Assembly: GCA_017381715.1 (NCBI GenBank)
Contig: JAFOBR010000092.1
Coordinates: 1 to 36,367, forward strand
Length of the DNA: 36,367 nucleotides
Direction: 5' to 3'
Origin: Clostridia bacterium
Lineage (GTDB): Bacteria; Bacillota; Clostridia; Oscillospirales; CAG-382
Position numbers and translations under genes: made by a program. Numbering within the stretch: position 1 is the first letter of the stretch; every line of letters starts with the position of its first letter. Shown in pieces: positions 16,374 to 16,964 of the stretch. Below the pieces are notes generated by a model. The model saw nothing but the letters and a program-made list of their open reading frames with translations, had not been told where the DNA came from and ran no database searches.

Positions 16374-16402
16374 TTGACAAAAGGTGGTATATGTGTTATA
16401 CT
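16374..16402 (+). promoter_or_regulatory. sigma-A promoter of the S10-spc-alpha operon
   Basis: TTGACA (16374-16379), 17-nt spacer, TATACT (16397-16402). Transcription should begin near A16408-G16409, giving a leader of about 180 nt before rpsJ. No other promoter of this quality was seen within the 15-kb cluster. Confidence 0.85.
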
Positions 16403-16407
16403 ACGCG

Positions 16408-16560
16408 AGCTTGGTGTGCGATGAAGTGGGAGATTGCTGCCCAAAAGCAGGTAACTCACACAGAGTATGTCGGTTTGATCTGGCGAATTTTCCAACATTT
16501 TTTATGGGTCGGAAATGAAACGCCCGGAACAGTGTTGAGAAAACCTTCAAACACCTCGCT
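16408..16560 (+). promoter_or_regulatory. structured 5' leader of the S10 operon (candidate cis-regulatory RNA)
   Basis: The untranslated leader folds by eye into nested helices. P1 closes the whole element: AGC (16408-16410) with GCT (16558-16560), and GGTGT (16413-16417) with ACACC (16551-16555), separated by a 2x2 internal loop. P2 is a hairpin: GTG and GG at 16426-16430 with CTCAC at 16455-16459, then CTGC (16437-16440) with GCAG (16447-16450). P3 stacks GGTTT (16472-16476) with AAACC (16541-16545), GGCG (16482-16485) with CGCC (16521-16524), and TTTCC (16489-16493) with GGAAA (16511-16515). The likely role is autogenous control of ribosomal protein synthesis. I could not match it to a named leader family. 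Confidence 0.6.
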
Positions 16561-16588
16561 ACATTATATTATATAAAGGAGAAATCCC

Positions 16589-16897
16589 ATGGCAACTCAG
16601 AAAATCAGAATCAGACTCAAGTCCTACGATCACTCTTTGATCGATCAGGCAGCAGAAAAAATCGTTGAAACCGCAAAGCGTTCCGGCGCAGCAGTTTCCG
16701 GTCCTATTCCTCTTCCTACCGAAAAGGAAATCGTAACCATACTCCGTGCAGTTCACAAGTACAAGGATAGCCGTGAACAGTTCGAGTACCGCACCCACAA
16801 GCGTCTTATCGATATCATCAAGCCCTCTGCAAAGGCTGTTGAGGCTCTCACCAACCTCGAACTTCCCGCAGGCGTAGATATCGAAATCAAGCTTTAA
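16589..16897 (+). CDS. rpsJ: 30S ribosomal protein S10
   Basis: 102 residues, full length. S10 sits in the head of the small subunit and also works with NusB (as NusE) in transcription antitermination. Family signature: [12 protein letters not shown] near residues 64-75, with the N-terminal [18 protein letters not shown] lies 7 nt before the ATG. First gene of the S10-spc-alpha cluster, preceded by the structured leader at 16408-16560 and followed by a 67-nt gap with a hairpin, unusually long for this operon. Confidence 0.98.
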
Positions 16898-16908
16898 TCA
16901 GTCAAATA

Positions 16909-16951
16909 AAGGTCATGTTAACCCGCGTCTTGCGAGTTAACCAATAACCTT
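16909..16951 (+). promoter_or_regulatory. rpsJ-rplC intergenic hairpin abutting the rplC ribosome binding site
   Basis: Nested pairing: AAGGT (16909-16913) with ACCTT (16947-16951), GTTAAC (16917-16922) with GTTAAC (16936-16941), and CGC (16924-16926) with GCG (16932-16934) around a GTCTT loop. The outer strand ends directly at AAGGAGG, the rplC ribosome binding site. It is not followed by a T tract, so it is not an intrinsic terminator. It may be an RNA-processing site, a protein-binding site or a translation modulator. Confidence 0.6.
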
Positions 16952-16964
16952 AAGGAGGATAAAA

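Follow-up and report, generated by a model that had tools for sequence, protein, structure and literature searches.

A structured, probably autoregulatory leader RNA of the S10 operon in a Clostridia bacterium lies below the database cut-off of a known Firmicutes leader family and appears to extend beyond its model

The Firmicutes S10 ribosomal protein leader was first reported by Yao et al. in 2007, as cited in PMC7247131, and numerous Clostridia examples were described by Eckert and Weinberg (PMC7247131); it is catalogued in Rfam as RF03136, the S10-Clostridia ribosomal protein leader. The S10 operon of Escherichia coli is regulated by ribosomal protein L4, which binds the leader of the operon (PMC10931766). 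Another rpsJ motif, RLC-47-1, is confined to three genera of the Peptostreptococcaceae (PMC11109978).

We analyzed a window of 36,367 nucleotides (contig JAFOBR010000092.1) from a Clostridia bacterium, in which the S10-spc-alpha ribosomal-protein cluster spans rpsJ (16589) to rplQ, with genes named from their translations. A promoter upstream of rpsJ puts the predicted transcript start at about 16408, giving a leader of about 181 nt, in agreement with the original prediction of a leader of about 180 nt beginning at the first transcribed bases. Most ribosomal proteins are encoded in the transcription unit that begins with this leader; its features, all on the plus strand, are as follows.

16374 to 16402, plus strand: promoter TTGACA-17 nt-TATACT, with 11 of 12 consensus matches
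16408 to 16588, plus strand: leader RNA of the S10 (rpsJ) operon, about 181 nt
16408 to 16560, plus strand: candidate closing helix P1, pairing 16408-16417 to 16551-16560, with weak support
16417 to 16426, plus strand: conserved core strand UGCGAUGAAG, almost without variation across the family
16426 to 16461, plus strand: helix P2, the first Rfam hairpin, with 9 of 11 pairs changed on both sides among 33 leaders
16463 to 16468, plus strand: GAGUAU linker between P2 and P3, invariant in 33 sequences
16469 to 16484, plus strand: helix P3, the second Rfam hairpin (16469-16473 with 16480-16484)
16488 to 16543, plus strand: helix P4, formed by UUUUCCAACA and UGUUGAGAAAA, outside the Rfam model
16498 to 16503, plus strand: U6 tract inside P4
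16506 to 16525, plus strand: apical helix P5 (GGG 16506-16508 with CCC 16523-16525)
16517 to 16535, plus strand: conserved 3' module GAAACGCCCGGAACAGUGU, carried by P4 and absent from RF03136
16575 to 16581, plus strand: rpsJ ribosome binding site AAAGGAG
16589 to 16897, plus strand: rpsJ, which encodes ribosomal protein S10 and opens the S10-spc-alpha cluster

RF03136 matches the leader at 16413-16486 on the plus strand with 31.8 bits and an E value of 7.7e-5 in the 371 nt searched. The match lies in sense orientation upstream of rpsJ and the S10 operon, as expected for the family, and it is the only RF03136 match in a scan of the whole genome from which the window comes. The score falls just below the curated cut-off of 35.1 bits, so that a default Rfam scan misses the leader: at gathering thresholds there was no match in it, and RF03136 appears only at E-value thresholds. 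The whole genus fails to reach the cut-off. Elsewhere the model is found in 52 of 60 relatives, 42 of them above the cut-off, and in 243 of 295 genomes of the order; the Bacillus subtilis and Lactococcus lactis controls score above the cut-off, and in every relative compared the site lies 92 to 404 nt upstream of rpsJ. The window leader has the two-hairpin core of the family, sharing with RF03136 the position upstream of rpsJ, the UGCGAUGAAG core, hairpins P2 and P3, and the GAG linker between them, and differing in its lower score and in the P4 helix and 3' module that it adds beyond the 81 positions of the model.

These differences, the sub-threshold score and the parts outside the model, are what could speak for a new element unrelated to RF03136. 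We regard this as very improbable, as it is contradicted by an E value of that size at the expected place and by an unbroken series of relatives above the cut-off (e.g., G010) that align with the window leader end to end. Such relatives reach 42 to 48 bits, and a cut-off is a database threshold rather than a biological feature; membership is therefore taken as established by homology. By homology and synteny, we assign the leader to the catalogued S10 leader family as a below-cut-off member. The original prediction had called it possibly undescribed, knew of no established Clostridia element of this shape, and had proposed an Rfam search; that search finds an existing model, which already accounts for 16413-16486, and the family had been reported (PMC7247131). 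The assignment settles the question of novelty for the element and shows that the Rfam cut-off misses whole genera. A full-length model, R2, locates the leader at 16406-16561, with the window sequence itself in its training set. RLC-47-1 resembles the window leader in lying in the 5' untranslated region of rpsJ in Clostridia, a likeness drawn from its description only (PMC11109978).

We judge the leader to be functional from the covariation of P2, P3, and P4 among relatives, not from closure by P1. Across 33 leaders of the window's family, P2 to P5 are jointly paired in 97.3% of cells, with a covariation score of 0.350 versus 0.170 in shuffled alignments (none of 500 reached the observed value) and at most 0.10 when the pairing is slid. 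The compensatory changes anticipated for the inner helices are thus present: P2 and P3 covary strongly in these 33 leaders, and P4 is supported across 39 genera. P5 is inaccessible to the covariation test because its sequence is nearly invariant.

The closing helix fares differently. The pairing proposed in the original prediction, AGC..GGTGT (16408-16410 and 16413-16417) with ACACC..GCT (16551-16555 and 16558-16560), has the right coordinates and is part of the minimum free energy fold of 16400-16575. It encloses three helices, P2 (16426-16461), P3 (16469-16484), and P4 (16488-16543), and the junction is four-way, not three-way as described. Closure had also been thought unlikely by chance, which holds for the full 10 pairs observed (2.9% of dinucleotide shuffles) but not for closure by at least 5 pairs (23%), and the overall stability is unremarkable, with a folding energy z of -1.4 and 18 of 200 shuffles equally stable. 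This modest z and the frequency with which shuffles close too are the arguments for a fold that arose by chance in untranslated sequence, a reading that we consider next to impossible given the strong covariation and the nearly invariant blocks in the 33 leaders. The computed probability of P1 is 0.9 for the leader alone and drops to 0.02 once 45 nt from the start of rpsJ are appended. Tested genus by genus, P1 reaches significance in the window's genus alone (8/500); one sister genus gives a borderline result, and there a compensatory exchange from GCUCGG/CCGGGC to GCUUGG/CCAAGC is seen. A universal P1 was rejected, as matched strands did not pair significantly better than mismatched ones across 11 genera (p 0.15), and P1, the least supported part of the original prediction, has clear support only in the window's genus. 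We note that other families of the order (G038, G042, G044, and G048; L135, L146, and L168) carry a local 5' hairpin directly before AUGCGAUGAAG, at a site where the window's family starts transcription instead.

P4 was evaluated by pairing the 5' strand, which immediately follows P3, with the 3' strand, which immediately follows the module, the two being taken from the same genus or from different genera. Own-genus strands pair at -11.2 kcal/mol versus -8.6 kcal/mol for other-genus strands (39 genera; 0 of 10,000 permutations as good, p 1e-4), and the helix is formed by differing sequences, such as CUCUAUA/UAUAGAA in Clostridium sardiniense and GCGGUC/GACCGC in genus g13. On these sequence comparisons we take P4 to be a real helix. 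It ends, in nearly all Clostridia leaders examined, in the module GAAACRCCCGG...GUGU or a close variant; in the window ACRCCCGG...GUGU occupies 16520-16535. Counting variants, 68 of 81 leaders have ACRCCCGG downstream of P3, compared with 1.9% in shuffles. The Rfam model leaves the 3' half of the leader, P4 together with the module, unexplained, and the full element appears to be larger than that model.

The S10 leaders of Bacilli (Bacillus inaquosorum, Paenibacillus, and Lysinibacillus) have the same core, P2, and P3, as well as the ACACCCGG motif, and RF03136 matches in several Bacilli. They differ in being compact, with P3 adjoining the Shine-Dalgarno sequence, and in the location of the motif: the ACRCCCGG 8-mer is inside P2 in 24/24 Bacilli leaders and in none downstream, whereas in Clostridia it is downstream in 27/31 and inside P2 in 0/31. 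Motif variants (ACGC and CCAGG) are found in both the Bacilli and the Clostridia positions. The likeliest reading is of one functional module that occupies two lineage-dependent positions and would dock on the core, although the 8-mer may have arisen independently in Bacilli and Clostridia. We infer that the UGCGAUGAAG core and the ACGCCCGG part of the module would form one composite binding site. In its full form, the proposal of a two-part RNA, with a P2/P3 core and a docking ACRCCCGG...GUGU module that moved between lineages, residing in P2 in Bacilli and in P4 in Clostridia (up to about 300 nt away), is evenly poised; Rfam would then describe the first part only, and the window would represent the compact Clostridia form. 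The extended architecture is a concrete reason to rebuild the RF03136 model. It also suggests which two RNA parts must meet to bind the regulator, and the question of the ligand thereby becomes testable in B. subtilis. Bacilli rpsJ leaders (L184, L163, L151, and others) also have a conserved GCCAUGG beside ACACCCGG inside P2, which is absent from the Clostridia leaders read.

It is highly probable that this known Firmicutes S10 leader is cis-acting and serves autogenous repression of the S10-spc-alpha cluster, in which an excess ribosomal protein of the cluster would bind the leader of its own mRNA and lower expression of the cluster. This reading is preferred because of the position of the leader, its family, and the precedent of L4 in E. 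coli, whose S10 leader resembles that of the window in preceding the same operon and in autogenous control (PMC10931766). The view of the leader as structured and probably autoregulatory is thus upheld for the structure, by covariation, family, and position, and the autoregulation retains its 'probably'. The predicted ligand is most likely L4 (uL4), a choice to which we give just short of an even chance, since L4 is encoded by the third gene of the operon and is the regulator of the S10 operon in E. coli. Comparison of the leader with 23S and 16S rRNA, for which other genomes of the order were used because the window's genome has no assembled 23S gene, gave no sequence mimicry above shuffles, and nothing from this comparison therefore favors L4 over another protein of the cluster. 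The Bacilli module was also compared with helix H35, which it resembled no more than shuffles did, and a high rRNA score for C. sardiniense in a permissive gapped run was discarded because the target included rRNA flanks.

Two routes can be considered by which binding would be converted into repression. Excess L4 or another protein could attenuate transcription at the U tract (16498-16503), in the manner of L4 in E. coli, a possibility that we regard as tentative. The U6 is invariant in the 33 leaders, termination contributes to regulation by the E. coli S10 leader (PMC10931766), and relatives with long leaders have stable terminator-like hairpins that end at the counterpart of this U tract, upstream of the module (-14.9 kcal/mol in G044 and -15.0 kcal/mol in G058; also in G007 and others); in those long leaders, hairpin and U tract together suggest premature termination. 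In the window, however, the U tract lies inside the conserved P4 helix, and no intrinsic terminator was found, as no stable GC-rich hairpin directly precedes the tract, which counts against attenuation. Control could instead be exerted at translation initiation, with the strand after P4 either joining P1/P4 or pairing with the Shine-Dalgarno region, and this too is conceivable rather than probable. Most relatives have a strand with complementarity to the Shine-Dalgarno region, and in sister genera this strand suggests control of translation. Across 26 genera, the post-P4 strand forms better pairing with the Shine-Dalgarno region of its own genome than with those of other genera (p 5e-4), although the permutation test controls only in part, since the leader and the Shine-Dalgarno flanks of one genome are alike in composition. 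The P3 helix of Bacilli stops a few nucleotides short of the Shine-Dalgarno sequence. Against this, anti-Shine-Dalgarno pairing amounts to a weak -4.0 kcal/mol in the window's genus. The window's genus therefore has a U tract lacking a preceding hairpin together with this weak pairing, and neither output signal is strong.

A second structured element is located between rpsJ and rplC. The hairpin GGUCAHGUYNN...NNRACCAAUAAC, at 16908-16952, lies directly 5' of the rplC ribosome binding site, and its stem covaries (0.359 versus 0.151 in shuffles, 0/500; 40 sequences). Rfam has no match for it. Among 117 genomes of the order, a model of the hairpin, R1, detects it in 97, in single copy in all but one, and just after rpsJ wherever coordinates were compared. 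Only two matches were obtained in 249 genomes across the phylum, both in the window's order, to which the hairpin is confined among the genomes sampled. It is apparently uncatalogued, and is possibly an undescribed intercistronic element with a role in regulation or processing.
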